Made by a program: the position numbers and the translations under genes. The notes below the pieces were generated by a model. It ran no database searches and was not told where the DNA came from. It was given only the letters and a program-made list of their open reading frames with translations. From Phellopilus nigrolimitatus (taxonomy: Eukaryota > Basidiomycota > Agaricomycetes > Hymenochaetales > Hymenochaetaceae): DNA of 64,000 bases. The DNA lies in assembly GCA_021029095.1 (NCBI GenBank), contig JAJOHG010000016.1:186001-250000 (forward strand), in the 5' to 3' direction. Positions 4,175 to 58,255 of the stretch are shown here, piece by piece. Each line of letters begins with the position of its first letter. Within the stretch, counting starts at the first letter, position 1.

Positions 4175-5151
4175 CTATCCAAAGCATACAGATATAAAAC
4201 TACCATCTATCCATGCAAAACAACGCAAGCAGAGCGTGCTGTGGCACCTACTGCTGCGCACGCTGCTGGCTCTTCTGACTCTGGCTGCGCTCTTTCTCGC
4301 TGACGATGCGCGCGGGGACGGCAGGCCGTGGTATGGATACGCGCCCACGCCCTTGCCAGCAAGAAGCGCGCTGAAAGGCGCTTTGCTTGAGCCCGAACTG
4401 GGGCTCGGGGAGACGCGCTGTTGAAGTAATGCGGGCGCAGCCCACTCGCGAGGCCGGAGAGGTTCGCGTTTCGCGTTTGCGTGAGAGCTGCTCGCAGGCG
4501 ACGTATCAGGCGACGTATTCGCGCTGTTCGGAGCAGGTGCATGTGCGCGCTGCTGCTGGGCCTGCATGGCAATGCGGTTCCAGAGTTGCATGCGATACGC
4601 ATCAAGCGTCTTCAGTGTAAACGGGTTCGTGTCCGAGAAGCTGTCGAACCCGCCGGCGGCTCCGTTGAGCTGCGACAGGACCTGACCCTGAGTAGGTTGT
4701 TTTGATGTTGCTGCTGCTGCTGGGCGCTTCCAGAACCGAAAACCTTGCTCGCTGCGACAGCAAGTGGGCCGGAATTTGGTTGAGCGCGGGGTTCATGTTC
4801 TTGTTCGCCCTGTCCGCGTGGGAGTGTGCGTGAGCACCGAACATCGTCTCCGGGATGAGCGCGGTGTGTGCACGGGTGTGACACCGAAGCCTGCGGCGCC
4901 CACCTGGCCGCCCCAGAACGCGCCTGGGCCACCACCGATGGCCGCGAGCCGCGGCGACGTCGGGAGGTCTTGTGCGTGTTCGGCTTGATTACGGAGCTCG
5001 GAGCTCGAAGGACTGGGGGAGGCAAAGGAAGAGAACAGAGAGAGCACGCTGATCGAACGGCGCAGGTGGCCCAATGAGCTGCGGTCAAATTGCGAACTGA
5101 AAGGCGGGCGAGTGCGAGGTGCTTAGGAGAGTAACAGCAAGAAAAAACCAT
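4175..5151 (-). pseudogene. mirror copy of the Gln-rich remnant
   Basis: Identical to 6191-7167 by palindrome symmetry, with the same frame breaks. Identical damage in both arms shows that the arms were copied after decay, or that one arm is an assembly artefact. Confidence 0.35.
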
Positions 5152-5254
5152 ATCAGCTTCAAATCAAAGTCTGAGGGTGGGGATTGCTCACCAGATACGG
5201 AAGCGAGTGCTTGAGACACTCAAGCGCTCCCTGAAGGAGGCAGACCCTGGGGGG

Positions 5255-5306
5255 ACCCTGTGTCCCGCGTCGAAAAAATATCGAGAATCGATGCGGGACA
5301 CAGGGT
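5255..5306. repeat. hairpin 1 built from the ACCCTGTGTCCCGC motif
   Basis: 'ACCCTGTGTCCCGCGTCGA' opens and its inverse closes a 52 bp inverted repeat with one G/A difference and a short A/T-rich loop. The mirror copy is 6036-6087. Confidence 0.85.
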
Positions 5307-5328
5307 CCGCAGGGTTTCTCACTGGGAG

Positions 5329-5381
5329 ACCCTGTGTCCCGCGTCGATTCAAAGGTACATATTCGATGCGGGACACAGGGT
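5329..5381. repeat. hairpin 2 with the same motif
   Basis: A second inverted repeat with the same 14 bp ends and a different loop, 22 bp after hairpin 1. The mirror copy is 5961-6013. Four such hairpins therefore lie within 840 bp around the palindrome centre. Confidence 0.85.
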
Positions 5382-5554
5382 CTTTTGTCGGCATGCGCGG
5401 CAGAGCAGGGGAAGAGCGGCGGAGAACTCACCGTTGCCAGCGAAGCGGCCAGCCTCGTGTGTGATAGCCGGGAGCGGCCCTGCGGGGCCAACGGAGCGTG
5501 CATACGACCAAGCACGCCCGGGGCCGCTTAGGCCGGTGCTTGAGGGGGCCTGCG

Positions 5555-5787
5555 ACTGACATAAGCGTACATAAGCCGTACATAAGCCTGATGGGAACAC
5601 CGGCAAAGTCCGGTCGTGGCAGCGTGTGCCGGGTACGCGTGCCCTCGCGACACCGCGGCTGACACTGCGGCTTACAATATCATCTCTACCAACGTCTCTC
5701 GTCGACATTTTTTTTGCTTCCGTCCTTGCGCGCGCGCGACACGACTGTCGGCCCCGAAGCGCGTCGCACCTCCGCTCACCGCCCGTC
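5555..5787. other. loop of the palindrome
   Basis: 233 bp of single-copy spacer between the arms. It starts with 'CTGACATAAGCGTACATAA', which recurs near 15,683 next to another family A promoter remnant. No gene is seen. Confidence 0.8.
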
Positions 5788-7398
5788 CGCAGGCCCCCTC
5801 AAGCACCGGCCTAAGCGGCCCCGGGCGTGCTTGGTCGTATGCACGCTCCGTTGGCCCCGCAGGGCCGCTCCCGGCTATCACACACGAGGCTGGCCGCTTC
5901 GCTGGCAACGGTGAGTTCTCCGCCGCTCTTCCCCTGCTCTGCCGCGCATGCCGACAAAAGACCCTGTGTCCCGCATCGAATATGTACCTTTGAATCGACG
6001 CGGGACACAGGGTCTCCCAGTGAGAAACCCTGCGGACCCTGTGTCCCGCATCGATTCTCGATATTTTTTCGACGCGGGACACAGGGTCCCCCCAGGGTCT
6101 GCCTCCTTCAGGGAGCGCTTGAGTGTCTCAAGCACTCGCTTCCGTATCTGGTGAGCAATCCCCACCCTCAGACTTTGATTTGAAGCTGATATGGTTTTTT
6201 CTTGCTGTTACTCTCCTAAGCACCTCGCACTCGCCCGCCTTTCAGTTCGCAATTTGACCGCAGCTCATTGGGCCACCTGCGCCGTTCGATCAGCGTGCTC
6301 TCTCTGTTCTCTTCCTTTGCCTCCCCCAGTCCTTCGAGCTCCGAGCTCCGTAATCAAGCCGAACACGCACAAGACCTCCCGACGTCGCCGCGGCTCGCGG
6401 CCATCGGTGGTGGCCCAGGCGCGTTCTGGGGCGGCCAGGTGGGCGCCGCAGGCTTCGGTGTCACACCCGTGCACACACCGCGCTCATCCCGGAGACGATG
6501 TTCGGTGCTCACGCACACTCCCACGCGGACAGGGCGAACAAGAACATGAACCCCGCGCTCAACCAAATTCCGGCCCACTTGCTGTCGCAGCGAGCAAGGT
6601 TTTCGGTTCTGGAAGCGCCCAGCAGCAGCAGCAACATCAAAACAACCTACTCAGGGTCAGGTCCTGTCGCAGCTCAACGGAGCCGCCGGCGGGTTCGACA
6701 GCTTCTCGGACACGAACCCGTTTACACTGAAGACGCTTGATGCGTATCGCATGCAACTCTGGAACCGCATTGCCATGCAGGCCCAGCAGCAGCGCGCACA
6801 TGCACCTGCTCCGAACAGCGCGAATACGTCGCCTGATACGTCGCCTGCGAGCAGCTCTCACGCAAACGCGAAACGCGAACCTCTCCGGCCTCGCGAGTGG
6901 GCTGCGCCCGCATTACTTCAACAGCGCGTCTCCCCGAGCCCCAGTTCGGGCTCAAGCAAAGCGCCTTTCAGCGCGCTTCTTGCTGGCAAGGGCGTGGGCG
7001 CGTATCCATACCACGGCCTGCCGTCCCCGCGCGCATCGTCAGCGAGAAAGAGCGCAGCCAGAGTCAGAAGAGCCAGCAGCGTGCGCAGCAGTAGGTGCCA
7101 CAGCACGCTCTGCTTGCGTTGTTTTGCATGGATAGATGGTAGTTTTATATCTGTATGCTTTGGATAGATGGTAGTTTTATTTCTGTATGCTTTTCTGTAT
7201 GTTTTTGTATGTACACGAAGACGGCGATTTTGCCTTAAAAAGGAAGGTCGGTGGTGTCGAGGAGGTGTGCAAAGCTCGGAGGCCGCCGAAATCACGTGAG
7301 GGATGGACCCTGGTGTCCCGTCAGGGTCCGGGACACGGGGGCGGTGCGCTGAGGTAAGCGTTTGGCTGAGCGCCACCGTGTCCCGCGTCAGAGAAGCT
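5788..7398 (+). repeat. right arm of 1,611 bp palindrome
   Basis: Exact mirror of 3944-5554 as far as I can read. Beyond 7398 the sequence runs into the 3' flank of a family A gene copy (homology to 32,313-32,345 starts near 7440), so the palindrome abuts that duplicated segment. Confidence 0.95.
6191..7167 (+). pseudogene. frameshifted Gln-rich remnant, perhaps of a bZIP-type regulator
   Basis: Coding-like sequence shifts between frames. Pieces read 'MFGAHAHSHADRANKNMNPA', then 'SAQQQQQHQNN', then 'DTNPFTLKTLDAYRMQLWNR', then 'NLSGLASGLRPHYF'. Put together they resemble the low-complexity central part of basidiomycete bZIP (AP-1/Atf-like) factors, recalled from memory only. No basic-leucine-zipper is present. 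No single frame stays open, so this is a broken fragment or a sequence with indels. An identical copy lies on the minus strand at 4175-5151. Confidence 0.35.
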
Positions 7399-35957: not shown

Positions 35958-36400
35958 CTACTCAATCACGCACCGCTCCTCCATCGTCTCTTCGTACTCC
36001 AAGGCTTTCTCGCAGAACTCTGCTTGCGCTTCCTCCTTCTCCTCAATCGGCCTCGTGACCCTTACCTTCTCCCTCGGGCCGTTCCGAAGCTTGGGCGGTT
36101 TACCGACTAGGGGGACAAGCACATGAACAGCGGTCCCCGACGCGAGCAGTCAGGTCTGGGAAGACTCACAGCGCACGGTATACCACCTACCGTCGTCAGA
36201 ATACTCCTCTAAGATTGTTGTTTCATATTTAGTCGCGACTGCACGAATGCGTCGTATAGATAGTGAGTACCAAACTTTCTGGATGAGCGACAACATCGGT
36301 AATGTGGCTTACTTGTATGTGCACCTCGAAGGCCTACGAGCCGGGGTCTTTGGCCCACAGGCAATGTTGTTCTTCTCGTGCGACGTGGATGATCTACCAT
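35958..36400 (-). CDS. family B small protein, intact (B-3), 113 aa
   Basis: Exons 36,400-36,313, 36,274-36,170, 36,106-35,958, the same positions and phases as the other intact B genes. Begins 'MVDHPRRTRRTTLPVGQRPR' (strongly basic), core 'ATKYETTILEEYSDDGRWYT', end 'KALEYEETMEERCVIE' (acidic). Basic head and acidic, likely helical tail are shared by all B proteins. TATA-like 'CTTTATAAG' at 36,473-36,481. Close relative of 57,806-58,255, to which the whole 35.75-37.6 kb segment is an inverted copy. Function unknown. Confidence 0.7.
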
Positions 36401-36941
36401 TTTGTCTGTTTGTCGTTTCTTCTGGTCTTTTGGTGACTTTTTGCTTCCGCAGGTGCCAGAGTCTTATAAAGGGGACGACAGACTGCGCTCGTCTACTTTG
36501 CTGCGCGCAAACACACCACTGCGCTTACAGCTCACCCAGAAAACCAATCTATGGAGATTGCCGCATATTAAGCATACTCGCTGCCTATATGAGTCCGGTA
36601 GTCTTCATATACAAGGTGCTAAACGCAAGTTGGTTTTATAACTGCTTAAACATTGTAGACACAGATAAGGACACTAAATGCTCTAGTGCATGCCAATTCG
36701 GCGAAGCTTAACTTACGCGCCACCGCATCCAAGACGAAGAATGTGGCCTTACTTGCACCAGCCTCGCTCACGAAACAGGACCGATAATCCGACAATCTAA
36801 ACACATTTTTTGCAAGGAAGCTCCTCTCTAAAGAACTCTACAACAGCAATCTCAGTCCTACAAATTTCTACGGCACGGCACGCAACAAACACACCGCCCT
36901 CTATAATAAATTTTCACAATCAAACAACAACGAAACGCATC
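36401..36941. promoter_or_regulatory. family B promoter region abutting aldolase 3' end
   Basis: Mirrors 57,275-57,805. Contains the TATA-like box and the B upstream sequence, followed directly by the 3' end of the aldolase exon on the same strand. Confidence 0.5.
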
Positions 36942-37577
36942 TCACAGCGGCTCGCCCTTCGCCGCGCGGCTCAGCTCCTCCGCGCGGGCCCTGAACACCG
37001 CACGTGCGCCCGCCTCGTCGCCCGCCGCCCACTTCACCATCGCGTCGCCCTGCAGCCCGCGGCCGAACGAGAACGTCAGCGGCGGCACGCGCGCATACTC
37101 CCTCTTTCCCTCGGGCTTCCCGTCCTGCGACGCGCTCAGCAGCGCGTTCGCCGCCTGCAGGTACGCAGCCGCGGTCGCGTCGGGCAGGCCGCCGCTCAGG
37201 AACACGACGCCCGCGACGCCCGCGGGCACCGCGCGCGCGAGCACGGCGAGCGTCGCCTGCGCGACGTCCGCGGGGGCCGTCGTCGCGCGCGCGGGGTGGC
37301 CCGTGCCCGGCTGCGGGAAGGACGGCTTGAGCAGCGTGCCCTCGAGGAGCACGCCGTACGCGGCGCAGCGCGCGTAGATGAGCGCGAGCGCGCGCGCGTG
37401 GATTTCGACGCTGCGCGCGAGGGACGCGTCCCCGCCGAAGTCGACGTCCGGCTCGACGATGGGCACGAGCCCCGCCTGCTGCGAGATGGCGGCGAAGCGC
37501 GCGAGCGCCTCGGCCTGCGCCTCGAGCGCGGCGTGGGACGGGAGGGAGGATGCGGTCAGGAGAAGCGGGGCGCGCCA
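36942..37577 (-). pseudogene. last exon of class I fructose-bisphosphate aldolase, 5' truncated
   Basis: 212 open codons ending TGA, nearly identical to 56,639-57,274. Begins at an intact splice acceptor ('TATCTCGCAG') with 'WRAPLLLTASSLPS'. The catalytic Schiff-base lysine context 'LLEGTLLKPSFPQPGTGH' is present. No upstream exons occur before the mobile element at 37,726. The GC-rich codon use (third positions almost all G/C) differs sharply from nearby genes. Confidence 0.75.
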
Positions 37578-37987
37578 CTGCGAGATAAGTGCGGGGAGGT
37601 ACGTAGTATCCAAGGGCACGACATAATGCACTCGTATAGTCTCATCTACTCCGTCAGAGCCTCTGGCCTCGTTTGCTTGCCACTCCCATCCTGCCTTTTC
37701 CTTAAGGTCCCAGACACATCGGTACCATCAGGAAAAGCCTCCCCTGTCAAATCCTATCAAATATAGTCAGATATGCTTCAATTTCTTCAATTTGGTTCAG
37801 AAACTCTGAATTTCACTGTCTAAACAGTTTTGAAGGATTTGAAGCTGGTACCCCGATAGTCCTTCAAATCCGTCAGATCCTTCAAATTTGTCAGATTATT
37901 TTGTTCATTCAATTTCAAGCAAGTCGAGACTTAGAATTATTTTTACCAAAGTCCTCGAGCAGATAGGGATTATAAACACACCTGAAA

Positions 37988-38066
37988 AATATTGCAACCA
38001 TCACGAATTGAACCCACAACCTTACAAATTTAAGCCAACACGTTACCAGCTAGACTATACAATCCT
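37988..38066 (-). tRNA. tRNA-like sequence, degenerate or SINE head
   Basis: On the minus strand an A box 'TAGTCTAGCTGG' (38,046-38,057) precedes a B box 'GGTTCAATTCG' (38,004-38,014) at tRNA spacing. The anticodon stem does not pair cleanly, so this is probably a tRNA pseudogene or the head of a short retroposon rather than a working tRNA. Confidence 0.4.
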
Positions 38067-38212
38067 TTTTCTATCCTCAAAACCTAGGATCTATATCACG
38101 TTAATCCATGAAGCCCAACTGGTCTGGACCATATTTCAACAACACGCATTGATACTCTAAAAATACAGATAGCACAATTGAATCAAAGACCAACTGTGAC
38201 AAATTCTACTAT

Positions 38213-40992
38213 CTAATACACAGAAAAATGTGTGCTACGGTCTTTGAAGGAATTTACAAAAAATGTAGTACATTCTTCTAGAACATTGGAACTTGTCCAA
38301 TGTTGAGGAGCATATGGGCCAAATTGTGGCAGGAGATGAACACTACGTACTATTTTATCAACAGACATTATGCTAGTAAGCCTCTCTCTATTGTCAGTGA
38401 CAGACCGAGTCACCTTATACATATCACTGTCTGGATCAGGTGCTGCCTGAAACTTGGAGAACCATTCAACATATACCAAATGCTTTGGGATGTCTTCATG
38501 TATATTACTTGGGAAGAGTGTTTCCAAAGCAGCACTTGTAAATGAAAAAATGGTCCGAACTTGTACAACACCAAATGCTGAAGAAAATACATGTCAGCTA
38601 CAATATTTTCCTTTATTTTTAATAATAAAGAATCTACCATGTATGTTAGAGCCTTGCCCAACTCTGACAAGTGCTGTGTCAAATCTTCCTGGTACAGTTC
38701 TGCCTTGTGTGTCCTTATGAGTTGGATGAGTATGTATTGAGTCCAGTGTTGCGGAGCCATGTACACCCTGGTTCCAGAATTTGATCCTGTGAAAGACTGG
38801 AAGATACTGAAAATTGATCATGATATGATTTGCTTCAATTTCAAGTTGGTTATGGGTGTGGATTCCTGGATTACACTGCAGAGCAACATAACGTGCTAAA
38901 GCAGCTTTGAAGTGGGTTGCACCATAATCAAGGGCAAATTTGTCAAGATGGACTGCTTTAAGAGTGGGATTCTTGGTCATTTTAATGGCAATATCACAGG
39001 CAATATCAGGAGCCTGCCAAGGCTGAGCTGGTGCAGCACCAGAAGAACGCCACTGGACAAAATTGGTGTGTGCATATATCTTCTCTTTCCGCTCAAGCCA
39101 TTTAGTCATCTGTGGGTACTCGTCCTTGCGATTTGTTGCACGATAAGCATCCTTTGCCATGTCAATGTGAAGACGCTCTGTAAACTGGGTATTATAATTG
39201 TCTGTGGTTCCCCAGAGCTTTATGCAGGACACATAATGTTTCATCCAGTGCAGCTTTATGAAATTGAAATCTTCCCGAGCACCTTGCTCAACAAAGATAT
39301 CCTTATTGGCATGGAAGCTTTCCAATGACTTTTCCAAAAGACCCAGAGTTTCATCTGTATGTATTGGGTACTGTGCAATGTACACAAAATCAAGAATGGC
39401 TCTGGTAGCTCGAACAAGCCGAACTGGAGAAGCATGATTGGGTAAAGTCACACCAACCACAAGTCCTAGAAGAAACTGGCAGATCTGACTGTGTTCAACA
39501 CCACTGAGATTTGAAAGTGAAGTTATGCCCTTGTGAAAAATGCGCATGCTATGATTTGGAGGGAGCCGACGGCAGCGTGCATCTATCTCTGCTTTGCCTA
39601 TGATCTCTGTGAGCCAAGAGACAAGATGCTTGACAACACCTTGAAATAGCTGGTGAAGTATATCTGCAGAAATAGACTGATAGATGTTGAAATAAGGGAG
39701 ATCTGCCCAGAATGGGTGCTGTATTGGTTTGATGCGGATTGCTTTGCAAGCTTTAGAATAAGCAGTTGGATTTTGTGAATCAAGGATTCGAAGAGCATCA
39801 AGTGCTTTCTCTAGACTTCTAAGTGGGTGAACACAGCATAACCCTGCACCAAGTTGGTTATTAGGGCATTCACATGTTCCACAGTCTCCTGTAAGGATCC
39901 CTGCTGTTCCAACTGCATCCATGTAATCAACAATTTCAACAGCAGCAAGAGTATGACCACGCCTGGTCAAACCATCACCACTTGTCATCATTTCGCCATG
40001 AACACCAGTTTTCTGAAGAGGGTGGAAGATAAGACGAAGGCATGCATGCTGTAGATTTGTCACAGTCCGCCGACGTGCAGCCTTGTTCTGAATATGATCT
40101 AGATTGCTGGTGGGCAAGTAAGCCAGGAGGGCATATGCATGACGTGATGGTTTTTTGCGAATATCTTTTGGGATATTACCAATGGAGATGTAGACTGGGT
40201 AAGCAGACTTGTTTCTGAATAGAGTGACCTGTGTCTTGTCCAAGGCAATAATAACAGGGATAATAGTAGCACCTGGTTTTGCCTGCTCTAGAGCTGTCTG
40301 CATGAACAACATGTCAGAGAATAACTCTTCAAATCATGTATTGAAATCAGACCTGAGTATTCCACCACCATTGACCAGTATTCATGTCATGGTAAACACG
40401 TACTTTTTTGTCAGGGCCTGTAAACTGGCGAGTGGGTACAAACAACAAGTCATTTGCAAACTCAGGAGCACCAAAGAGGGCTTTGATGCACTCAAGGATA
40501 TTACGATAGTGCACATCAAAAGATTGCTCTGCAATGACAATTTCGCGCCTTTGGAACTTGGGTCGGCGATTTGGAATAAGCTTGTCAATCATCCCATTAA
40601 GCTCCTGAGAGTTTTTGAAAGATAGCCCAAGTCTATCAACAACCTAGAACAGAAGATAAATGTTCAAAGCATGAAATAAAATATAGTTGGTATGAAGGCT
40701 TACACCTTCTATCTTGAGGAGCTCATCCAGTGCAGTTGAGCTAGGGCCCCTGAGCTTAGCCCAACGAGCCATCTCCCATTCAAGTTTGGATGAAAATGGG
40801 GCCCACTCCCTGGCATCAGCTGCATTAGCCTCAAGCCGTTCCTGATATTCCTGGAAAATATTTGATCCAGCCTGCTGATTGGCATCACCTTGGGGCTGGT
40901 CAGAATAAACTTTTCCAGCCTGTCCAAGAGTAAATTTCTCAGTATATCCTGGCTGATAAAGAAGACGGCTCTCAGCTGCATGGCGCTTAACT

Positions 40993-41023
<31 letters not shown>

Positions 41024-41528
41024 CAGCAGCCTGGACACCTTCCAGGTCATCAACTTGCATCTGATTGTCATCAGGCGGAGGTCTTTCAGGCTCCCAACCT
41101 TCTATACCCAAAATTCAGAGTCATATATATGATATAAGAACACTGTACTGCTTACCATAATTGCCCTCCCCTTCCCCTTCCTCCTCCTCTCCCTCCTCTC
41201 CTGAGTCCAGACCAGTATCCATGCCACCGGCAGGGTCCAATTCTTCATCATTGAACCCAAAATCTGCAGGTGCATAGTCATTGCCAAAGTAGTCACCTTG
41301 AAACCGGACAGGCTGGAGAGGCTCCTCTGGTTCAAGCTCCTCCATTAATGCATCCTCATCCTCTGGTTGCATGATTTCACCTTGTGCAATTGCGTCTTGC
41401 TGAAGCTGATGGAAGAACCGGGTGTATGCAAGGTAGCACGGATGGTTTTCAGGCTGTCGACGTTGATGAGACCGTAGAGCAGCATACTGTGAGTTACAGC
41501 CAGGGCATTTCTCAGTTATGCCAGACAT
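38213..41528 (-). CDS. Plavaka-family transposase, intact, 1,028 aa
   Basis: Exons 41,528-41,156, 41,101-40,704, 40,643-40,353, 40,297-38,638 and 38,577-38,213 join in phase without stops. N-terminus 'KCPGCNSQYAALRSHQ' is a C2H2-like zinc finger; acidic and Ala-repeat linkers follow. The core has 'IIPVIIALDKTQVTLF', 'NKSAYPVYISIGNIPKDIRK', 'DCGTCECPNN', 'HTDETL', and a C-terminus 'SNVLEECTTFFVNSF'. These are the landmarks of Plavaka transposases, a CACTA-related group expanded in agaricomycetes. It should bind the element's ends and catalyse cut-and-paste movement. The lack of frame damage suggests recent activity. Confidence 0.88.
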
Positions 41529-41566
41529 TTTGATTGTAGCAGGATAGAATTTTGACGCAGCAATGA

Positions 41567-42175
41567 GTGAGAGCAGAAAGCAAGATGCGTTATCATGATG
41601 CGACGATGAACTGTCCACGCATGATTTACCAATTAGTACAAGTTGAAACTCCGCCTGCGTCGCGCGCACCGTTCATATCTTGTTCGCTCGTCGTTCCTCG
41701 CTCACCGACGTCCTCACACGGCCAGAACCAGGTCAAGCCATATCTCGGGGTGCCGCCCACGACTAGCGGGTCATCCTCGAGCAGCGGCCCTACACCCTCC
41801 GTCCCCGTGAATGGCACCACCGCGCCCAGTGGCAACAGCGCGGCGTCTGCCACCGGCCTGCCGCCGTCCGTTCGCGAACGTGCAGCTCAGTCCGTCCGCA
41901 CACGCGCGTTGTTGCAGAGCACGCCGGAGCCGCAGGGCCGCGCGAAGAAGCGGCGCAAGTTTGCGCCGCCGGAGCATCCTGTAGGTCCTCAACCGCATTT
42001 TTCTGCGAGGGGTTCTCCTAATTCTGCATTTAGCTGCGATCAAACCTTTCAGGAGAAGCAAAATGCTGATTTTCAGTACTTAAGGACACCCCCGTACGTC
42101 TCTTGCTACCTCATCCTTCCATCCCATCCACTTCAGACACTGTTCACTTTTACTCATACACAATAAAGAACTATC
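41567..42175 (+). other. coding-like fragment, unassigned
   Basis: An open Ser/Pro-rich stretch reading 'SGSSSSSGPTPSVPVNGTTA' and 'PPSVRERAAQSVRTRALLQS' then 'AKKRRKFAPPEHP'. It looks like the N-terminus of a nuclear protein, possibly of the TFIIF-alpha gene whose middle lies at 42,795-43,780; not proven. Confidence 0.3.
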
Positions 42176-42795
42176 ATGGACAACTCTAAAGGACACGGCG
42201 TTGGACGAGGTGATCGCGGCCAACACGGTCGAGGCATTCCTCCGAGTCACCGAGGGGCACCTCCTATGGCTCGTGGGGAGCAAGGCGACTTGTCTTCTAG
42301 ATCCTCCGGTCTACGCTTGTCTTCGGGCGACCCTCGCGATAGCGGTGGAGAGCTCGGTTTCGGCTCTGGAGCCGTACAGGTCTATGCCCCCAACACGCCC
42401 GCGCAGGCCGACGCGCGGCTTTCGGACAGGGAGCAGGATGCACGCGTCTCTCGCTTCTGAGTGCTGTCTCAGACCCCGATCGCGTCGTACGCCCAGGATT
42501 CGGGAAGCGTGGTATCGCGATTGCAGTTCGCGCTAACTTCTTCGCGCTCAAGTATTTGAAGGACGTCGTTATGTACGACCACCCAGTCAAGATTGCTCTC
42601 GATGTGGTCTCTGCGGCTGTTCGTAAGCGTTTATTCGAGCTCCTGGGATCCACGCCGGAGGTTGTACCCTACCTCCACGAGATGGCGCACGACTGGACGC
42701 AGACTTCTTTGCGACAGACTTTGAAGCCGGACATCAAGCTCTCGCTCTCCGCGGCGTCGACGAAGGCGTCCTCGCAGAGCGCGGACGCCGCGATG
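42176..42795 (+). pseudogene. Argonaute fragment, N-terminal part
   Basis: Gly/Arg-rich start 'GVGRGDRGQHGRG', then 'VYAPNTPAQADARLSDREQD', a frameshift near 42,460, then 'RPGFGKRG...VRANFFALKYL' and 'VVSAAVRKRLFELL'. This is the order seen at the N-terminus of fungal Argonaute proteins. The frame break makes it non-coding as it stands. Lies just inside the mobile element, upstream of the transposase start on the opposite strand. Confidence 0.7.
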
Positions 42796-43780
42796 CCTTA
42801 CCAGGAGTTCAGCTTCGTGTCGTGCGTGGCAGGCGTTACGACGTCATGACGTTCGACGCGCGCCGCCCGGTGGAGATTGCGAACTGGGCGCAGCCCGTCA
42901 AGCTCTACCGCAAGCTGCGGCGCGAGGTCGTGGAGGCGGCGACGCCCGTGGCACAGACTTTGCGGATGAGGAGAAGGAGCAACCCTTGGGATTGGGACGG
43001 GTGATGAAGAGACCAAGGAGATAGAGGTGTGTTCTTGTTTCTAACTGTTTCACATTGTCCCTACTCAAATAACTCAACAGGAGCGTCTCAAATGCGACGC
43101 TCTTCCACAAGAAGCCGAGCTGCCTATTCGCACTGGCCATGATGCAGAGGGCAAGCGGCACAGACAGCTGAGAAAGCAGCCATGCTGCGCATCACCCATA
43201 CCCAAAATCAAGAGCTCACTGCGAGCCCGGTCGAACGGCGCCGGAGTGAGTCTGGGTGGGAACCCGCTCATGAAGACGGAGTCGAAGCCGGACGGTCAAT
43301 GCCCTATAGGACTATAGGAGTACGACCTCATGCGATCGCCACGACTGGCGCCGTGGCGCTACAATGTCTTCGCGCCTCACCCGGTGAAGATTGCGAACAA
43401 CTCTAACTGGGCACAGCCCGTCAAGCTCAACCGCAGGGAGCTGCAGTGCGAGGCGGGGGCGATGCCGCGGCTCTGACACACGTGGGGCCCATGCTTGGCC
43501 CGGACGGGAAGCCCGTGATGGGCGCGATGGACGCATCGTCATGGTCGACGCGGAAGGGCGCCTTATTCACGACGGGAAGGTCGCGGATGGCACGGCGGGC
43601 TCCTCTGCGGCAGGGAAGGCCGCCGGTGCGGACGGCAAGGACAACAAGAAGAAAAAGTTCCAGAAGAAGACGCGCCAGGTGTTCAAGGTGCGGCTGCGCA
43701 GGGAGGAACGGTACCCGTGGGTGATGGAGGACGCGAACGGGGCGGAGATATGGGAGGGGATCTCGGCTGGTGGTTCATCG
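42795..43780 (+). pseudogene. TFIIF-alpha (RAP74/Tfg1) fragment(s)
   Basis: 'PYQEFSFVSC', 'RRYDVMTFDARRPVEIANWA' and 'QPVKLYRKLRREV' fit the RAP74 N-terminal region. A second, partly repeated piece at 43,325-43,450 again reads 'NWAQPVKLNRREL'. Next come 'VMVDAEGRLIHDGKVADG' and 'FQKKTRQVFKVRLRREERYP' with 'WVMED'. TFIIF-alpha is a general RNA polymerase II factor. Several frame changes and the partial repeat mark it as a captured, rearranged fragment. Confidence 0.65.
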
Positions 43781-43799
43781 CTTGTGTACGAATCGAGAG

Positions 43800-45000
43800 G
43801 GAGGTCGCAGGCGCTGCGAGGCGAGCATGCGAATTATAATACTCTCTCGATCATCTCTGCCTTTAACCTCACCACAACCGCGCACGCCTCGCACCGGCGC
43901 GCCCAACAAGGAAGGCTACCTGTCTCCCCCTTCAGTCTTGGACGAATCTCCGCTTGCTCTCAGTCCAGGTCTTGAAGCGTGGAAGGTGTTCTTCGCAAGC
44001 GTATGCCCAGTGTACAAAAAAATCTTATGGTCAACATCAACATCTGCATGGGCGCGGTTTACGTCCAGAACGCGCGCCTCAGCGATGCGATGATCAAATA
44101 TAAACAGACATCGTACGGGGCAAGCAACTCCCAGAGCATTTACCGGCGCGTGAGGGTTACGATGAAGCACCTTGGCTATCGCAGGAAGAGCGGAATCAAG
44201 GCTTTCGGAAGACAGTCAACGAGGAAGACAGTCTTCCAGTGCGACGAACTGGACGGGATGGTCAGTGTGGAACAGTACTTTCAACGAAGTAAGCACAACT
44301 AGCATGTGTGATTGACTTGACCTTAAACACTCACGGCAATGTACAGAATTCATTATTCGCCTCGAACATGCGGATGACTTGCCCGTGGTCAATGTGGGAA
44401 ACAAGGCTAAGGATACCTTTGTTCCCGCCGAGCTTTGCGAGATCGAGTCGGGCCAACCATACGCAGGTATGCTCTCCGAGCGCGAAACTCTGGAAATGGA
44501 AAAGTACACGACAGTGCCGCCGTTCGTTAGTGCCAAAACGATCGCCGAGCAGGGACTTGAAGTACTGGGTCTGCCATACAGGGCCGATCAAATTTTCCCT
44601 CGACATGGCAGTCGTCCCAGCGCGCCTTCTCAGCCCGCCCAAAGTAATCTACTCATTGGGCTCTCACCTCCGCCAACGGATACTGGAACACCCGCGACGT
44701 GCGCTTCCACCGGCCCGCGCACCTTACTCGCGCTGCCATTCTCGTCCTTGCGGACGGCGGGCGCGAGGACTTCAGGGATTCCTCGGACACGACGCTGCGC
44801 GGCGTGGTGACGCGGTTCCTGGCCACGTACCGGGCGGGCGGGATGCAGTTCGACCACGCACTCCTGCCGCTGCTTTTTGTGCGGTTCCCAAAAGCGAACC
44901 CCTGAGACCCGCTGCGTACCGCGGCGACCGATGCGATCGAGGAGATTAAGACGCTTCCTGGGCGCCTGAACACCATGCTCGTGTTGCAGTTCATTCACCA
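43800..45000 (+). pseudogene. Argonaute fragment, linker-PAZ to start of MID; no PIWI
   Basis: 'YNTLSIISAFNL', 'GLEAWKVFF', 'LMVNINICMGAVYV', 'VTMKHLGYRRKSGIK' and 'MVSVEQYFQR' are the linker 1/PAZ entry. An intron with normal borders (from 44,289) joins to 'IRLEHADDLPVVNVGNK', 'FVPAELCEIESGQPYAG' (PAZ core), then 'DVRFHRPAHLTRAAILVL' (linker 2/MID). Homology ends near 'RLNTMLVLQF'. The PIWI domain with its catalytic DEDH residues is absent. The retained intron shows genomic rather than retroposed capture. Small frame changes occur near 43,880 and 44,600. Confidence 0.72.
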
Positions 45001-45301
45001 TTCCCTATGGCATGCTGTCGGCTTAATTCATTCAAAAAAAACATTTACATAGTTTTTGTTTCTCATTTATCTAGAAAGATGTGTTGCAATATATACTAAA
45101 ATGACTAGGATTACTGAGGGAAAAAATTAGGAATGGTAACCACAAACGTACAAATTAGTATAAATTGAAACTCCGCACGACACGACATCTGAACTTTTGT
45201 CTTCGTGTTTTTTCACCTCACCTATCACAACATACCCACATACGCAAAAACGACATTCATTCAATCTCTTACCCTGCTATTTTTTTTTTCACAACCCGAC
45301 C

Positions 45302-48300
45302 ATGGCGCCTCGCCGCCCAAGCACAAACCCTCCCAACCCCAGTGTCACTGACAGCCCGGGCCGTCCTAGCCGCGCAGCCAAAGACAAGGTCATCAATGAG
45401 AAGCGTGAGTAGCACACAGCATCAACGCTAAATAAAGTTTTACCATATTTTAAGCCTGGTTTACGGAGCTACAAAAACGGAAAAGGGCCCAGTCAACTGC
45501 TTCGTCGACTCCGGCCGAATCTTCGACTGCTAAGCCCGCTGCGAAGAAGGCAAAGAATGTGAGTGTGGACTCTAATCCGGAATGGCTCACAGTCGCTGAA
45601 ACCCGCGGAAAATGAGACAAAGCAGAAGGAGGAACGTGGTAAGTACAAATTCACAGCGAAAAAATGAATGTCATTATTTATATATTTATCTATTCTTCTG
45701 TCTTGTAGCTGCCCGTCAATTCATAGCTCGTGGCCTCGATGACCCAGCCGAGGCGTCTCAACTGTCTGCGGTTGCACCACCCCCACCTACCAATGGCGCG
45801 GCCCGCAATGCATTCTCCGACATCTCGACAACTCGCGAAAACGCACTTACAACTCAAAAGATGCGTCCTGCCGGGAAATCTAGGGGAAACGGACCTAAAC
45901 AGCCAGCCGACAAGAGCATCATGCACGCGCCGCGCATGGATGAGCACCGTACGATTGTTGCTCCATTGAACACGCAATCCTCACGGAGCGGCGTCGACGA
46001 GCACGGCACGATCGCGCGAAACCTCGCTGGACACTCGCTCGACAGCCGCAATACCTCGCTTTCGCATCACGCAAGTACGCAAGAGGCTTCTCCCGCACCG
46101 CGCATGGATGAGCACCGTATGACCGGTAACCCGACGAGCACGCTATCGGCTCGGCGCGACATCGACGGGCACGGCGCCGTGGCGCGAAACCTCGCTGGAC
46201 ATAGTCTCGACGCACGCGAGCCCCCAATTCCACGTCGTGCGAGTGCGCGAGAAGGACTGCCTGCACCGCGCATGGATGAGCACCGTACGATTGGTGCTCC
46301 GTTGGGCACGCAATCGGCTCGGCGCGACATCGACGAGCACGGCACCGCAGCGCGAAACCTCGCTGGATGTACTCCCGAGACACGCGAACCTACACTTCCA
46401 CATCGCGCGAGTGCGCGAGACGGTCTAGCTGCACCGCGCATGGATGAGCACCGTACGATTGTTGCTCCATTGAACACGCAACCGGCCCGGAGCGACATCA
46501 ACGAACACGGTGCGACGCTGTCTGGTGAGTCACAAATCGATACCGAATTTTTTTCAGGCGTGCACGGGCCTTCCCTCTCACGTCATGCGAGTGCGCAGGA
46601 CGTGATAGGTGCAATTTCCACACACCCTCGCACTACCGTCAATTCGACAAACGAGCGGCGCAGTCAACCACCTCCGCGTCGTGTCGACATTCGCAAAAAA
46701 GCGAGTGCTCGCGTTGCAGTGACTGAGGGTAGCGGTGACGAAGACAAAGACGAAGGCAAAGACAGAGACGAAGACGCCGACACCGAAGATGCGTCCGATA
46801 GCAGGAGTACGGGGGGCGAGGACGAGCAGATGGTTGTTACTGCTGGCGAGTTTGCACAGGAGGTATGTTAATTCCTGCGTGTATCTACTTTACTGACGAC
46901 TTTAATTTACAGACTGCTTTTCTGCCAGACTCGGACAGCGGAGGTTCGGAAGACACAGACCCTCCGGCGCGCAAAGTCTGTTCACGTCGTACACCTCCAG
47001 TTGCCGTTGATGACGACGACGACCTGTGGAGTGACAACGGAAGCATTGTATTGTCTCGCCGCCAGGAGAAACAAATTGCGGAGGTAAGTTTTTTAATTGG
47101 CAAACGCTCTACAAACTCTTTCAATAGAGTGAGCAGTTGGAAGAAAAGGGGAGAGGCGGGCTTGTGGTTCGACAAGCACATGGATTTCAAAGAGAGCCTT
47201 GACGTCGAAAGGCACTTTAGTCTCTGACCACGCGCGGTTTTCCCGTGCAGCGGTTCATCAAAATTCTCCTCATCGGCTTTCTTCACGACTGAGAACTAAC
47301 AGTTATGCGATTAGCTCCCAATATTCCAGGAACATGGCGATTACTCTGATGCAAATGACGAGGCCTCCGACGATGCACCTCCTGCCGCCGCTATTGCGCA
47401 GGATATGGATTTATCGGAACTCGCTTGGCCCGAGTCCGCGCGATTAGTGCAAAGGACAACATTTAGAGTCAAGCCGCAGAACGAACACATCCAGAAGGTC
47501 GTATTGACAGCGAAGGAAGCATTAGCGAAACACATTCAACTCGCGACACCATTCCCAACTGCAGAGCAAAAAGATAAGATAGCGATTGAAGTACTGACAG
47601 AGGCTGCGCTCGTCAATCACGAAGGTGATATTCATCATCGACTGACCGAGGACGACGATTTTCTTGTGGCACTTGCGAAGCTAGTAAGTACTGTATTCTA
47701 CTATCTAATGAATCTGACCTTCTTTGTTTAGATTCGCAACCATATGAATAAAGTCCGTAATGTGGTCCTGACAGACGGTATCAAGACCATTGTGAAAAAT
47801 GAGTACGCTATCAGTGACAAACGCGAAACGGCCACAATTCAAATCAATGCACTTTTACGGAACCATGCCTACGTTCACGCTGACCATAATAATGTGAGAG
47901 CCCATCTTTTGTTAATGCTTACGCTTATACAACATATTTACAGCAGAGTCCAAAGACACTATTCACTGCGCCTGCTATCAAGATTCTGGCAACGAAGTCT
48001 CTGTTCATGAAAGACGGCTGTACACATGATCGCTTCCCTGAATGCTTCAAATCAGGTGTTCATCCGAGTCAAAATGAAATACCTGGCCCGGTGATTGCAC
48101 TCATTAGTACAGCTGTAAGCTAAACATTATAAGGGTGCTATCGTACACTAATTTATTAATTTTAAGATTTTCTATGTCTTGTCTGATTACCATCGTGCTG
48201 CGAACCACTTCGCACCAGACTTCAGTGCCCCCAGATGCATACATGCCTACGGGGAGCATATGAAGTCTTTGGCGAGGATGTACGCGGCGTCAAAAGTGAA

Positions 48301-48500
48301 GTATCATAAAGTCCTTCATGCTCTGTATAAGGATGCTGTCGAAAACTCGTATGTGTTTCTATTTATCTTTTTCTTTGCGCGCATTGAACCCTTCTTGCAG
48401 GTCAGGAATTGTGCATAATGATGACTGCTACGCAGACGAGTTGGACGGATGGTCCTGCTATTCCGATGGCGACGGCGACGATGGCGACGGTTGCGAATAA
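45302..48500 (+). CDS. DUF6532-type protein of the mobile element
   Basis: Multi-exon gene beginning 'MAPRRPSTNPPNPSVTD'. The first half is disordered and includes a 168-bp (56-aa) tandem repeat, 3.5 units from about 45,931, each opening 'PRMDEHRT' and containing 'EHGT.ARNLAGHSLD'. An acidic stretch follows. The C-terminal domain 'VVLTAKEALAKHIQLATPFP', 'NEYAISDKRETATIQINALL', 'FYVLSDYHRAANHFAPDFSA' resembles DUF6532, a basidiomycete domain often found next to Plavaka genes (from memory). It ends in an Asp/Gly tail and TAA. Exon borders in 47,090-47,330 are uncertain. Probably an accessory protein of the element. Confidence 0.65.
45931..46520 (+). repeat. 168-bp coding minisatellite, ~3.5 copies
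   Basis: 'CGCGCATGGATGAGCACCGT' recurs at 45,931, 46,099, 46,267 and 46,435, exactly 168 bp apart. Period is a multiple of three, so copy-number change would keep the frame. Confidence 0.9.
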
Positions 48501-48890
48501 TCATACATTATAATCCCTGCGGATATCCCCTCTCCACTCCTTTGCTCTCGTTCACCTCTTTCATACAGTCTTTTAATGCTTTATTGCATGTAATTACTCT
48601 TGTCTCGTACAGCTTTTTAATGGCCTCCTAATTTTATTTGCTTCACTGTAATGTGCTCGATGAAACTGGTTAGATTACTTTCAAATCGTTCAGAACTGCT
48701 CAGAAAGCCATCCTTCAAATGCCTTCAGAACCGTCAAATCCTTCAATACACGTCGACTTCAAAAGCTCTGTGAGTAGATCTGACGTTTTTCAGATCCGTC
48801 AAACCTTTCAGAAAACTGAATTGAATTGAAGCAATTTGACGTAATTGAAGGCTATCTGAGCCAATCTGACAGGGTAGGTTTTTCCTGATG

Positions 48891-49927
48891 ACTTTTGTCG
48901 ACACGACCGAATCCTTTGCTTGATCATGATGCTTTGCTTACTCCTCAGCAAGTATCGTTCCACGGCGGATGGGCATGAGATAAGCGTGAACGAATAATAA
49001 TACTGCGAAGGACATCCGTGCTGTTGGCGTCAGGTTCCGCGCAGTCCCCTTTTTTCTTCGTGCTACCCTGCGCGACGTATCCGCATGAGAACACGAGATG
49101 CTTTCGATGTGTTGGTGCTCTTGAAATTGTGAATCTGTTGTCGCTTACGTTTTGTTACGTCTTCACAGCAACAGCGGCAAATTCTGCGCTGGCAGCACCT
49201 GCTTTCTATTGCGCTCTCGCTTTCTATGTACATGAAATCCTTAATGTCCCATCACACGGCTGATGTCTATCGTTTGTTCACGCCTGGCCCATGCCGAGAT
49301 TACTGGGTCACGTCTTCACCTCTTATTCCTTGCTGATTGATACTAAAGACATGGAATGCTTCACTTCAGATCGTCCCGTTATATATGATGACTGGTTACA
49401 ATCTTCTGCAGTCTATGTACTTCTGAGCTTAAGCGAGAAGCTCGTCAGAGCAAAACCTACGATCCAGCTGATCAAGCGACGAAGCGGAAACTTAGCGCTC
49501 TTCTGATTGGTGCAGCCGCTTACAACCGCAGTCTCTGTATCTGATGTCAATTATTCGTTGATCTCTGGCCTGTGGTCCGCAGCGACTTGAAGGGAGTCTC
49601 GTCTCAAAGAGCCTAGGCTCGTCTTCGCTATTCATTGCATGTGCTTGTTTATCCGAACCCTTAGGATAAACGAGCGCTGCTCTGTCTGCTCCTGAAAGCT
49701 CTACCAGTGATTCACTTCGCGGAGAGATGGAGGTAATCCGGAAGCAATTGAGGCGCTCTGAACCCCAACAACTTTGCTTTCCACCCCATGCAACCTTGGA
49801 CGCGTCGCCATCCACGACAGACTAGTAACAACCGTGGCGGCTGGTTACGAGTCTGGTGCAAACTGCGCGAGGCGTACAAAAAAGCGAGCCTGGCGCCGTG
49901 AACATTAGCCACTGAACCACCCAGCAA
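48891..49927. other. spacer right of the mobile element
   Basis: No supported gene. Short open frames lack family resemblance. Confidence 0.45.
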
Positions 49928-55027: not shown

Positions 55028-57274
55028 ATGAGTCTCAACGCCACCGCAACGCCCGGCTACGGCTTCGCGCCCGCCGGCTCAACCGCCGGCGCCGGCGCCA
55101 GGGACGCGAGCGACCCGCACGCCTTCCTCTACCCGCACCACGCCCCCGACGTCGCCCGTGCGCTCATCGCGACCGCCCAGGCCCTCGTCAGCCCCCGCGG
55201 CGTCGGCATCTACGCGACAGACGAGACCCCCGACGGCATCGGCGCCCGCCTCGCCGCCGCCGACAAGGAGGCCCAGATCCACACCGAGTGGTCCGACGAG
55301 CAGAAGCGCGACCGCAGGCGCCGCTGGCGCGAGTGTCTCTACTGAGACCCTGCCCACTGGTGAGTGCAAACGAGTCTACTCCCTTGGGGCTTTACGCTCC
55401 CTCCTCCCGCGTTTATATTATAATATCAATCCTGTTTTCTTTTGACTTTTCCTCCTACCCTTGTTGCATTCTCGTATTCTTCTCTTCCTCCTTTCGTTGA
55501 ATACTTAAAATTCCCCTTACGCTCCCTCCTCCATCCATTATCGTGCCCTCCGCTCTGGACGTCCCTTCCTTTCTTCACCTTTTTAAAAATTCATTTCTAA
55601 ATGTACCCTTGTCTTTTTTGTGACATCCCGTTCCCTTTTCCTACTCCCTTCCTCAACGCTTTCTCTTGCTTTCCGCGCCGCTCCTCCTCCCTCTCCCAAA
55701 TCACACAACTGACACACGCACGCGCGCGCAGAGTACATCTCGGGTGTGATCCTCCACTACGAGACGCTCGTCGACTTCCAGCTCGCCCCGCTCCTCACCG
55801 CCCGCGGCATCATCCCCGGCGTGCGCGCCGACACCGACTCCCACCCGCTGCCCATCTCCCCGGGCGAGCCCGCCACGCAGGGGCTCGACGACCTCCTCCC
55901 GCGCCTCCAGACCGCGTACGCAGCCGGTGCGCGCTTCACAAAGGTTCGTCTTTTCTTTTTCCTTCTCTTTTTCTCTACGTTCTTCTATCAAATTTCTTTA
56001 CATTTTCGCTTTTTGTTTCTATTCCTATTCCCTACCCCCTCCCCCCCTTCGTAAACGCCAACACTCGTCGCTGGCGCGAGAGAGCCCGCCGCATTGCATC
56101 GCGCGCGCGCTCAGTGGGAGCAGCGTCTGCGAGTACGGAGACTGCGATAACGCGAGAGTAACCGCGTACGGCTCGCTTAGCAGCAGTGCGCGCGGGCGCG
56201 GGGGACGCGCGTCGGCCGCGCTGCTAGAGAGTGGCACGCGCGCTCTGGGAAGAACGATCCGCCGAGTCTCCGTCGCGCGCGCCCGCGCGCAGCTTGATCG
56301 CAAACCCACGGCCAGCGGGACTCGAGAAGGCGACGCTAGCATGCGATACGGCGCCCGTCAGTTGTCGCCGTCGTCGCGCACGAGTGCGGGGAGCTGGACG
56401 CCGGCTCCCGGCTCTTGTCCGTGATCCAGCACTGCGACGTCGTCCTGCGCGAGAAGGCGACGCTTGTAGTCCTCCACAAGCGAACCCTGTCGGTTGCCGA
56501 AGATCCGCAGGTTTCCAGAGCGCAGCGCGGAACTCGAAGTCCGGCGCAAGCGCTGCCTCCCCCTTTTTTTGTCTTTTTTTTCAAACATTCTCTTACTCTT
56601 TCTATCAACATCGAGCTAATTCTAATTAACCCCCGCAGTGGCGCGCCCCGCTTCTCTTGACCGCATCCTCCCTCCCGTCCCAAGCCGCGCTCGAGGCGCA
56701 GGCCGAGGCGCTCGCGCGCTTCGCCGCCGTCTCGCAGCAGGCGGGGCTCGTGCCCATCGTCGAGCCGGACGTCGACTTTGGCGGGGACGCGTCCCTCGCG
56801 CGCAGCGTCGAGATCCACGCGCGCGCGCTCGCGCTCATCTACGCGCGCTGCGCCGCGTACGGCGTGCTCCTCGAGGGCACGCTGCTCAAGCCGTCCTTCC
56901 CGCAGCCGGGCACGGGCCACCCCGCGCGCGCGACGACGGCCCCCGCGGACGTCGCGCAGGCGACGCTCGCCGTGCTCGCGCGCGCGGTGCCCGCGGGCGT
57001 CGCGGGCGTCGTGTTCCTGAGCGGCGGCCTGCCCGACGCGACCGCGGCCGCGTACCTGCAGGCGGCGAACGCGCTGCTGAGCGCGTCGCAGGACGGGAAG
57101 CCCGGGGGAAAGAGGGAGTACGCGCGCGTGCCGCCGCTGACGTTCTCGTTCGGCCGCGGGCTGCAGGGCGACGCGATGGTGAAGTGGGCGGCGGGCGACG
57201 AGGCGGGCGCGCGTGCGGTGTTCAGGGCCCGCGCGGAGGAGCTGAGCCGCGCGGCGAAGGGCGAGCCGCTGTGA
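55028..57274 (+). pseudogene. class I fructose-bisphosphate aldolase, frameshifted
   Basis: Exons 55,028-55,359, 55,732-55,943, 56,639-57,274. Exon 1 has 'GIYATDETPDGIGARL', equivalent to the class I 'GILAADES' segment; exon 2 has 'YISGVILHYETLVDFQLAPL'; exon 3 has the Schiff-base lysine in 'LLEGTLLKPS'. Near 55,342 an extra base puts TGA (55,343-55,345) in frame and leaves exon 1 out of phase with exon 2; removing one base would restore 'RECLYETLPTEYISG'. So it is a recent pseudogene or carries a sequencing error. TATA-like 'CATATATA' lies ~105 bp upstream. Intron 2 is 695 bp, ten times the local norm. Confidence 0.75.
56055..56560. other. GC-rich insert within aldolase intron 2
   Basis: Flanked by pyrimidine-rich intron sequence on both sides. 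On the minus strand an open frame reads 'RIFGNRQGSLVEDYKRRLLA' and 'DDVAVLDHGQ' before a stop, which looks like an exon of another gene caught here. Not identified. Confidence 0.4.
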
Positions 57275-57805
57275 GATGCGTTTCGTTCGTTGTTTTGATT
57301 GTGAAAATTTATTATAGAGGGCGGTGTGTGTTTTTGCGTGCCGTAGAAATTTGTAGGACTGGAATTGCTGTTGTAGAGTTCTTTAGAGAGAGCTTCGTTG
57401 CAAAAATGTGTTTAGATTGTCGGATTATCGGTCCTTGTTTCGTGAGCGAGGCTGGCGCAAGTGAGGCCACATTCTTCGTCTTGGATGCGGTGGCGCGTAA
57501 GTTAAGCTTCGCCGAATTGGCATGCACTAGAGCATTTAGTGTCCTTATCTGTGTCTACGATGTTTAAGCAGTTATAAATTCAACTTGCATTAGCACCTTG
57601 TGTGGGACTCATAGGTAGCGACTATGCTTAATATGTGTCAATCTCCTTAGACTGGTTTGTTGAATGAGCGGTAAGCACAGTGATGTATTTGCGCGCAGCA
57701 AAGTAGACGAGCGCACGGTCCGCCGTGCCCTTTATAAGACCCTGGGCGCCTGCGGAATCTGGAAGGGACCGAAAGACCAGAAAAAAAAAACGACAGACAG
57801 ACAAA
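57275..57805. promoter_or_regulatory. aldolase 3' flank and family B promoter
   Basis: Mirrors 36,401-36,941. TATA-like 'TTTATAAG' at 57,731-57,738, about 70 bp before the B start. Confidence 0.55.
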
Positions 57806-58255
57806 ATGGCAGATCATCCGCGTCGCACGAGAATAACAATAATGCCTGTGGGTTGGAGACTCCCGCTCGTAGGCCTTCGAGGTGCACATATAAGTAAGCC
57901 ACACACTTCCGATGTTGTCGCTCATCCGTAAAGTCTGGTACTCACTATCTATACGACGCATTCGCCCAGTCGCGACTAAATACAATATAGCAATCTTAGA
58001 GGAGATTTCTGACGACGGTAGGCGGTATACCGTGCGCTGTGAGTCTCCCCAGACCTGCCTGCTCGCGTCGCGGAGACCGCCACTGCTCATGCACTTGTCC
58101 CCCTAGTCGAAAAACCGCGACTGTGGCGGAAAGGCCCGTGGAGGGAGGTAAAGGTCACGAGGCCGATTGCGGAGAAGGAGGCAGCGCAAGCAGAGTTCTG
58201 CAAGAAAGCCTTGGATTATGAAAAGGCGATGGACGAGGGGTGCGTGATTGCGTAG
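57806..58255 (+). CDS. family B small protein, intact (B-4), 113 aa
   Basis: Exons 57,806-57,893, 57,934-58,038, 58,107-58,255, phases 1 and 1. Begins 'MADHPRRTRITIMPVGWRLP', middle 'IRRIRPVATKYNIAILEEIS', end 'KKALDYEKAMDEGCVIA'. Differs from B-3 at many residues yet keeps length, frame and splice sites, which suggests selection on the protein. Convergent with the family A copies at 60-61.5 kb. Function unknown. Confidence 0.7.

Follow-up and report, generated by a model that had tools for sequence, protein, structure and literature searches.

The 64,000-nucleotide window analysed here (C68:186001–250000 of the Phellopilus nigrolimitatus genome, which comprises 56.4 Mb in 635 contigs) contains a DNA transposon of the Plavaka type whose two genes are separated by an insert of Argonaute sequence, itself interrupted by sequence of TFIIF-alpha. 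The insert reads as the 5′-truncated relic of an Argonaute-carrying Helitron2-like element lying inside the Plavaka, an explanation that, taken as a whole, we hold with a probability of roughly 0.87. An earlier note on this DNA had instead proposed that the Plavaka itself captured the host genes. Positions given without a contig are window positions. Several loci are present twice in the assembly, consistent with the presence of two haplotypes.

The outer element, a PlavakaB-type DNA transposon, spans 37726–48890 (11,165 bp; CATCAGG...CCTGATG ends). Its inverted repeats at 37726–37763 and 48853–48890 are flanked by a 2-bp target site duplication (TSD), AC, at 37724–37725 and 48891–48892. A search with the terminal inverted repeat (TIR) pattern CATCAGGAAAARCCTNCCCTGTCA, allowing up to three mismatches, returns 45 genome-wide matches and none with the reversed control, and both the left and the right end are found again at other loci; these are thus real ends with counterparts genome-wide, and the cargo lies, as the note had it, between the transposase and DUF6532 genes inside this one pair. 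A perfect 2-bp TSD accompanies six of the seven elements read (window copy included), the C135 element failing with AA/AC. The window element shares with PlavakaB its 5′-CATCA..TGATG-3′ termini, a TSD within the described range of 2–3 bp and a Plavaka transposase domain, PF18759 (Kojima 2025, PMC12730594, as far as its main text goes). That text describes TET/JBP dioxygenase genes as PlavakaB cargo and mentions neither Argonaute nor DUF6532, whereas what the window Plavaka carries in addition is the pseudogene remnant of a different transposon.

The transposase gene (38213–41528, reverse strand) gives a 1,028-amino-acid open model with four manually chosen introns of 54–60 nt, and this model covers the PF18759 profile completely (positions 1–325 of 325; E=4.9e-105). 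No second close copy of the transposase is present in the genome; the next best locus, on C482, reaches 39% amino acid identity, has a single 74-bp DNA match to the window element and shows no match to the Argonaute/TFIIF cargo within the 9 kb examined. The DUF6532 gene (45303–48500, forward strand; start and stop read by eye) is divergent from the transposase and matches PF20149 at E=5.7e-26 with exons spliced by eye. Within it, 45930–46480 contains several degenerate in-frame repeats of an MDEHRTI-like unit, and the same segment has a 69-bp match to C35 and a 49-bp match to C290. The further element copies with the same cargo that the note had proposed to look for did not appear among the elements read: the six others read with the window's Plavaka ends, 161 bp to 2.0 kb long, have only those ends in common with it. 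As a separate observation, 161-bp elements resembling miniature inverted-repeat transposable elements, at C1:176582–176742, C19:19858–20018 and C57:60339–60499, consist of little beyond two Plavaka TIRs, judging from the C1 copy, which was the one read.

Composition of the insert

The insert occupies 41655–45148 on the forward strand and is bordered by the left (41627–41654) and right (45149–45176) copies of a 28-bp direct repeat, likewise on the forward strand. It is 80–86% identical to the internal part and tail of a Helitron copy on C264, and DNA of 41560–45060 matches many places in the genome. Nothing convincing was matched by 41655–41750. The adjoining segment, 41751–41969 (forward strand), is a fragment of an SNF5-like (SWI/SNF subunit) gene with 84–86% DNA identity to the C264 and C54 Helitrons. 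Because the SNF5 domain is missing from the window, the assignment of this piece rests on C264, where the frames neighbouring the match hit PF04855 SNF5 (E 9e-5 for one frame, 1e-10 for the joined pieces) and also match Snf5/SMARCB1 PDB chains.

The Argonaute portion, all on the forward strand, begins with a 5′ flank (41970–42175) homologous to DNA upstream of the closest intact Argonaute gene, which lies on C90 and encodes 955 amino acids in three exons. Part of exon 1 follows (42176–42703), with its own ATG at 42176 and an in-frame TGA at 42458–42460. Beyond the TFIIF-alpha sequence, 43815–44985 holds exon 2, an intron and part of exon 3, encoding linker-1, PAZ, linker-2 and the ArgoMid stretch with frameshifts. 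The retained intron, recognized already from the sequence alone, is the second of the gene and lies at 44289–44346. Together, these parts align to residues 1–177, 220–453, 465–487 and 490 to about 598 of the C90 protein, with 86% DNA identity over 1.2 kb and over 0.7 kb. The C90 protein matches Pfam ArgoN, ArgoL1, PAZ, ArgoL2 and Piwi (residues 601–910), and its ArgoMid match (residues 492–556) is sub-threshold. Single open reading frames (ORFs) of the window score 0.0027 for ArgoN, 0.029 and 0.039 for ArgoL1 and 0.00024 for PAZ, all under the curated cut-offs; these weak matches and the DNA identity to C90 bear out the N-terminal, linker and PAZ order described before. The absence of PIWI also holds, since the Argonaute stops at about residue 598 and Piwi starts at residue 601. 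The proposed end at the start of MID needs correction, as the window sequence extends through the ArgoMid stretch and breaks off shortly before Piwi.

Relative to C90, the aligned parts carry indels of 1, 4, 2, 2, 16, 4, 2 and 3 bases. Differences at codon positions 1, 2 and 3 number 49, 39 and 103 (three aligned parts summed), a bias expected if part of the divergence accumulated in functional genes. With its early stop, frameshifts and missing Piwi domain, the window Argonaute is a pseudogene as judged from its predicted reading frame. The stretch 44985–45020 was considered as Argonaute C-terminal codons and rejected, because in the C524 copy it falls downstream of the Argonaute stop codon.

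The RAP74-like piece reported between the two Argonaute parts is likewise confirmed. This TFIIF-alpha-derived segment (42704–43814, forward strand) replaces 188 bp of Argonaute, and its match region, 42723–43814, consists of five pieces of a parent gene on C223 in shuffled order, one of which looks as if it keeps a parental intron. The C223 parent itself scores slightly below the Pfam TFIIF_alpha cut-off (26.1 bits against 27.1; E 4e-6). With C223 and the C90 Argonaute, parent genes for both captured sequences, which the note had proposed to seek in the genome, are at hand. Both Argonaute–TFIIF junctions are present also at a C334 locus, outside the Plavaka. A portion of the TFIIF-alpha piece, 42723–43468, is doubled in the insert and single at C334, and this could reflect either a later duplication in the window or a loss at C334.

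A Helitron2-like family with Argonaute cargo

The insert ends in a Helitron 3′ tail (44979–45148, forward strand) that has lost its hairpin, retains a degenerate 3′ asymmetric inverted repeat at 45129–45139 and ends in CCACAAACG followed by T. The stretch 44979–45140 is shared, whole or in part, by nine loci (C54, C124, C11, C6, C269, C113, C446, C264 and C334), and local alignment shows all nine stopping at ...CCAAAG before a T and continuing into unrelated flanks. The Helitron 3′-end pattern has 97 matches genome-wide and none in the reversed control, while a search for the 5′ region finds at least 40 places (40 of 91 candidates scored).

End structure was read in 20 copies for which both ends were fetched. 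The 5′ terminus is TACGATTCCT in 18 of these and TACAATTCCT in the remaining two (C524 and C290), and an internal AGGAATCGTA precedes the 3′ hairpin in all 20. The sequences TACGATTCCT and AGGAATCGTA are complementary, forming an asymmetric terminal inverted repeat. An identical hairpin stem is predicted near the 3′ end of 18 copies, C608 and C589 folding differently. A T follows the 3′ end in 20 of 20, a count that must be read with the search pattern itself ending in T, and a T precedes the 5′ end in 11 of the 12 copies readable there. The motif TCGTCC, initially taken as the 5′ end, was replaced by TACGATTCCT after these 20 copies had been read. Asymmetric inverted repeats have been described for Helitron2 (PMC5148889, available portion). 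Specifically, the P. nigrolimitatus family resembles Helitron2, Helentron and FoHeli in its asymmetric terminal inverted repeats, near-3′ hairpin, apparently T-rich target, Rep-helicase and non-autonomous copies, and differs from them, as presented in the available portions of PMC5148889 and PMC4067079, in its CCAAAG end before T and in its cargo of Argonaute, SNF5-like and TFIIF-alpha sequence.

Eleven places in the genome carry Helitron_like_N, and in four of them (C14, C44, C390 and C608) the ORF encoding it lies between matching 5′ and 3′ ends. The C44 ORF, of which 1,877 amino acids were read and which continues further, combines Helitron_like_N (PF14214) with PIF1; no endonuclease match occurs in those 1,877 residues. 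The family thus has members that are predicted to be autonomous. The Argonaute-bearing copies on C54 and C124 are 98.4% identical over 10 kb and have different sequences on both flanks. A copy on C622, seen through its ends and Argonaute matches, again has flanks different from both. At C54:34567 the C54 copy follows another Helitron's 3′ end without a gap, and 18 bp are missing from the very start of its 5′ terminus. Inside its 10 kb lies a 733-amino-acid open frame on the minus strand, at 4694–6892 in coordinates that place the start of the copy at 1067; neither this frame nor the other three of the four C54 Helitron ORFs searched has a Pfam match, and the frame is perhaps another captured gene.

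The association of Argonaute with Helitron ends was assessed over 61 Argonaute loci, obtained by merging the matches of three genome searches (76 of 90, 73 of 73 and 17 of 17 rows used, after dropping 9 TFIIF and 5 SNF5-like/tail rows) with haplotypes counted separately. A same-strand Helitron 3′ end lies within 3 kb downstream of 17 of the 61, against about 0.16 expected by chance, while both positional controls, same-strand ends within 3 kb upstream and opposite-strand ends within 3 kb downstream, give 0 of 61. Spacings from Argonaute to the 3′ end recur at 223, 422–423, 583 and 597 bp. Outside the 17 stand C334 and its twin C279, C269 and C6, of which C334, C269 and C6 are joined by local alignment. 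No Helitron end is present in the surrounding DNA examined at the intact Argonautes of C90 and C27/C390. The tblastn matches of C90 and C27 contain no stop, and those of seven Helitron-type copies (window, C264, C334, C54, C524, C113 and C446:188k) contain between 1 and 9 stops plus frame changes, some of which stops may be intronic because the matches cross introns. Spread of the Argonaute copies by ordinary segmental or tandem duplication, with the shared tail as the 3′ flank of the gene, would accommodate the clustering of some loci on one contig, as on C390, C4 and C446; it is nonetheless very improbable, since no such tail follows the intact C90 gene in the DNA examined there. The terminus moreover occurs 97 times and yet adjoins only 17 of the 61 Argonaute loci, and its partners are a conserved 5′ end and RepHel genes.

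Two copies connect the window insert to this family. The 4.4-kb element at C264:3421–7803 is an end-to-end Helitron that matches the window order SNF5-like, Argonaute and tail, without TFIIF. C334 has the two Argonaute–TFIIF junctions of the window and a portion of its tail, and no match to Plavaka sequence is present within the 9 kb examined. The window groups with C334 in the Argonaute tree with a support of 0.895 (0.885 after trimming of the C334 row), and this pair is sister to C90 plus C27/C390 (0.856 and 0.861). Two observations stand beside these. The relics at C446:208180–209339 and C625:8963–10100 are near-identical Argonaute sequences with no recognised Helitron end, and another carrier may have spread them. 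The C264 Helitron pseudogene (contig C264, 28,215 bp) has probably been annotated as a gene, giving rise to a deposited 538-amino-acid 'hypothetical protein' in which an ArgoN domain is present. The findings on the family as a whole also suggest that, among the Argonaute-like genes annotated in fungi, some are pseudogenes carried by Helitrons.

Acquisition of the cargo and entry into the Plavaka

The copies described above show, at the level of genome sequence, acquisition and spread of Argonaute, SNF5-like and TFIIF-alpha sequence by the Helitron family. By this comparison, a Helitron2-like rolling-circle family of P. nigrolimitatus acquired a host Argonaute at the DNA level, its 5′ flank, ATG and introns being kept. 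The family also took up SNF5-like sequence and, in one of its sublineages, sequence of TFIIF-alpha, and spread all of these as cargo upstream of its own 3′ tail. One copy of the TFIIF sublineage, with its 5′ 1.2 kb missing, sits between transposase and DUF6532, the two divergent genes of a PlavakaB whose structure is otherwise intact.

Direct capture by the Plavaka of Argonaute and then TFIIF-alpha from host genes, in the manner of Pack-type elements, draws on the position of the cargo inside one pair of confirmed Plavaka ends and on the retained introns, which likewise point to acquisition at the DNA level. The Argonaute-plus-tail unit and the Argonaute–TFIIF–Argonaute chimera exist outside the window Plavaka; the right edge of the insert is a Helitron tail that is absent at the intact C90 locus examined; and the SNF5-like piece is common to Helitron copies. 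The cargo is therefore unlikely to have been taken directly from a host gene by a TIR element in the Pack-type sense. With the tail, a Helitron2-like terminus, and the chimera found elsewhere, capture by the Plavaka, as the earlier note had it, is rejected as highly unlikely.

Two routes could have brought the Helitron relic to its present position, namely Helitron insertion followed by decay, or a copying event in which gap repair, switching templates after the DNA had broken between the two genes, brought in a Helitron-borne Argonaute fragment. The second is a variant of the Helitron origin rather than a departure from it. The missing 1.19 kb at the 5′ side of the C264-like Helitron and the 28-bp repeats at the edges are what staggered-break fill-in or template switching would leave, and gap repair accordingly retains appreciable weight; a random patch would not explain why the right edge lies at, or a few bp from, the expected Helitron 3′ terminus. 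That edge reads AGGAATGGTAACCACAAACG before a T, compared with AGGAATCGTAAC, hairpin and CCACAACCAAAG before a T in the family, and it may be a true Helitron terminus minus its hairpin. Insertion is somewhat favoured.

Several points weigh against the reading of the insert as an inserted Helitron2-like relic. The window copy has neither the 5′ end of a Helitron nor the hairpin at the 3′ side, and its own ends do not prove insertion; the 9 bp leading up to 45149 look like a Helitron terminus, too short a match to serve as proof. The direct repeats at the two edges are identical at 25 of 28 positions, and Helitrons are not known to make direct repeats of this kind as a rule. The base flanking the 5′ end of C264 is G, not T, and no Helitron 5′ end occurs within the 9 kb examined at C334. 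With the pattern used, 44 of the 61 Argonaute loci have no end within 3 kb, intact host genes and relics being among them. Neither a cargo-free sister of the 11-kb Plavaka was found in the genome nor an empty site, the search with both flanks returning only paralogues and repeats. Additionally, the family label 'Helitron2-like' is based on structure. Since the window copy does not possess both Helitron termini, it is called a relic.

Cargo function, precedents and neighbouring sequence

A broken reading frame implies that no Argonaute protein is made, and the insert is probably passive cargo, the likelier of the two options raised in the earlier note. If the Plavaka transposes, the pseudogene would be expected to travel with it; no second copy of the Plavaka with the pseudogene was seen in the genome. 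In the other option, transcripts would yield small RNAs against the host's Argonaute to the advantage of the transposon; in the form considered here, transcripts of the many Helitron-borne Argonaute fragments would supply small RNAs or decoys, so that the host expresses less Argonaute and the transposons profit. Such cross-talk between the insert and the host Argonaute is conceivable, given that exact 21-mers of the insert recur at 266 positions of the intact Argonaute locus on C90, 465 of that on C27 and 108 of the TFIIF parent, and small interfering RNA cross-talk between gene-capturing Helitrons and donor genes has been proposed in Brassica napus (PMC11986588, available portion). The sharing of 21-mers is nevertheless expected for any recent pseudogene, and both Plavaka genes point away from the insert, which leaves an active role of the cargo quite unlikely. 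It is equally doubtful that the Helitron family gains from its cargo through sense and antisense transcripts that would flood or prime the small-RNA pathway against host Argonautes and so weaken silencing, a gain in which the SNF5 and TFIIF-alpha cargo would perhaps share. Were it true, interference with Argonaute would be the RNA counterpart of transposon-borne TET/JBP genes countering DNA methylation.

That Helitrons capture genes is well established for plants, where maize-type elements form mosaics of several host-gene fragments, keep introns and spread in non-autonomous copies. The P. nigrolimitatus family is likewise a multi-gene fragment mosaic with introns kept and non-autonomous copies, and differs in its fungal host, its Helitron2-like ends and the presence of a core silencing gene among the captures. 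In fungi, 27 putative gene captures, mostly of hypothetical proteins, are reported for Fusarium Helitrons (PMC5148889, available portion), and a TET/JBP-bearing Helitron2 is named in Agaricus (PMC12730594, main text), so that the carriage of extra genes is no novelty in itself among fungal Helitrons. Those of Pleurotus are reported to show no tendency to take up genes of the host. HELPO of Pleurotus ostreatus (Castanera 2014, PMC4289320, available portion) also represents basidiomycete Helitrons with extra genes; by comparison, the Argonaute and TFIIF-alpha parents of the P. nigrolimitatus cargo reside in the same genome. A literature search over titles and the beginnings of abstracts, with most subscription journals outside its range, returned no report of a Helitron- or Plavaka-borne Argonaute. 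A Helitron2-like family that has spread sequence of Argonaute, of TFIIF-alpha and of an SNF5-like gene through a basidiomycete genome, in which two of the parents also lie, appears new to us. This fungal family has picked up and spread one gene central to silencing along with two further nuclear genes, and one relic of it rides inside a second, potentially mobile transposon. It is a natural setting in which to ask whether pieces of the silencing machinery, once carried by transposons, act back on it.

To the left of the Plavaka, a gene at 36204–37582, which by eye resembles a class I aldolase, has an inverted, 92% identical paralogue at 56634–58004, and further partial copies of it occur along C68.

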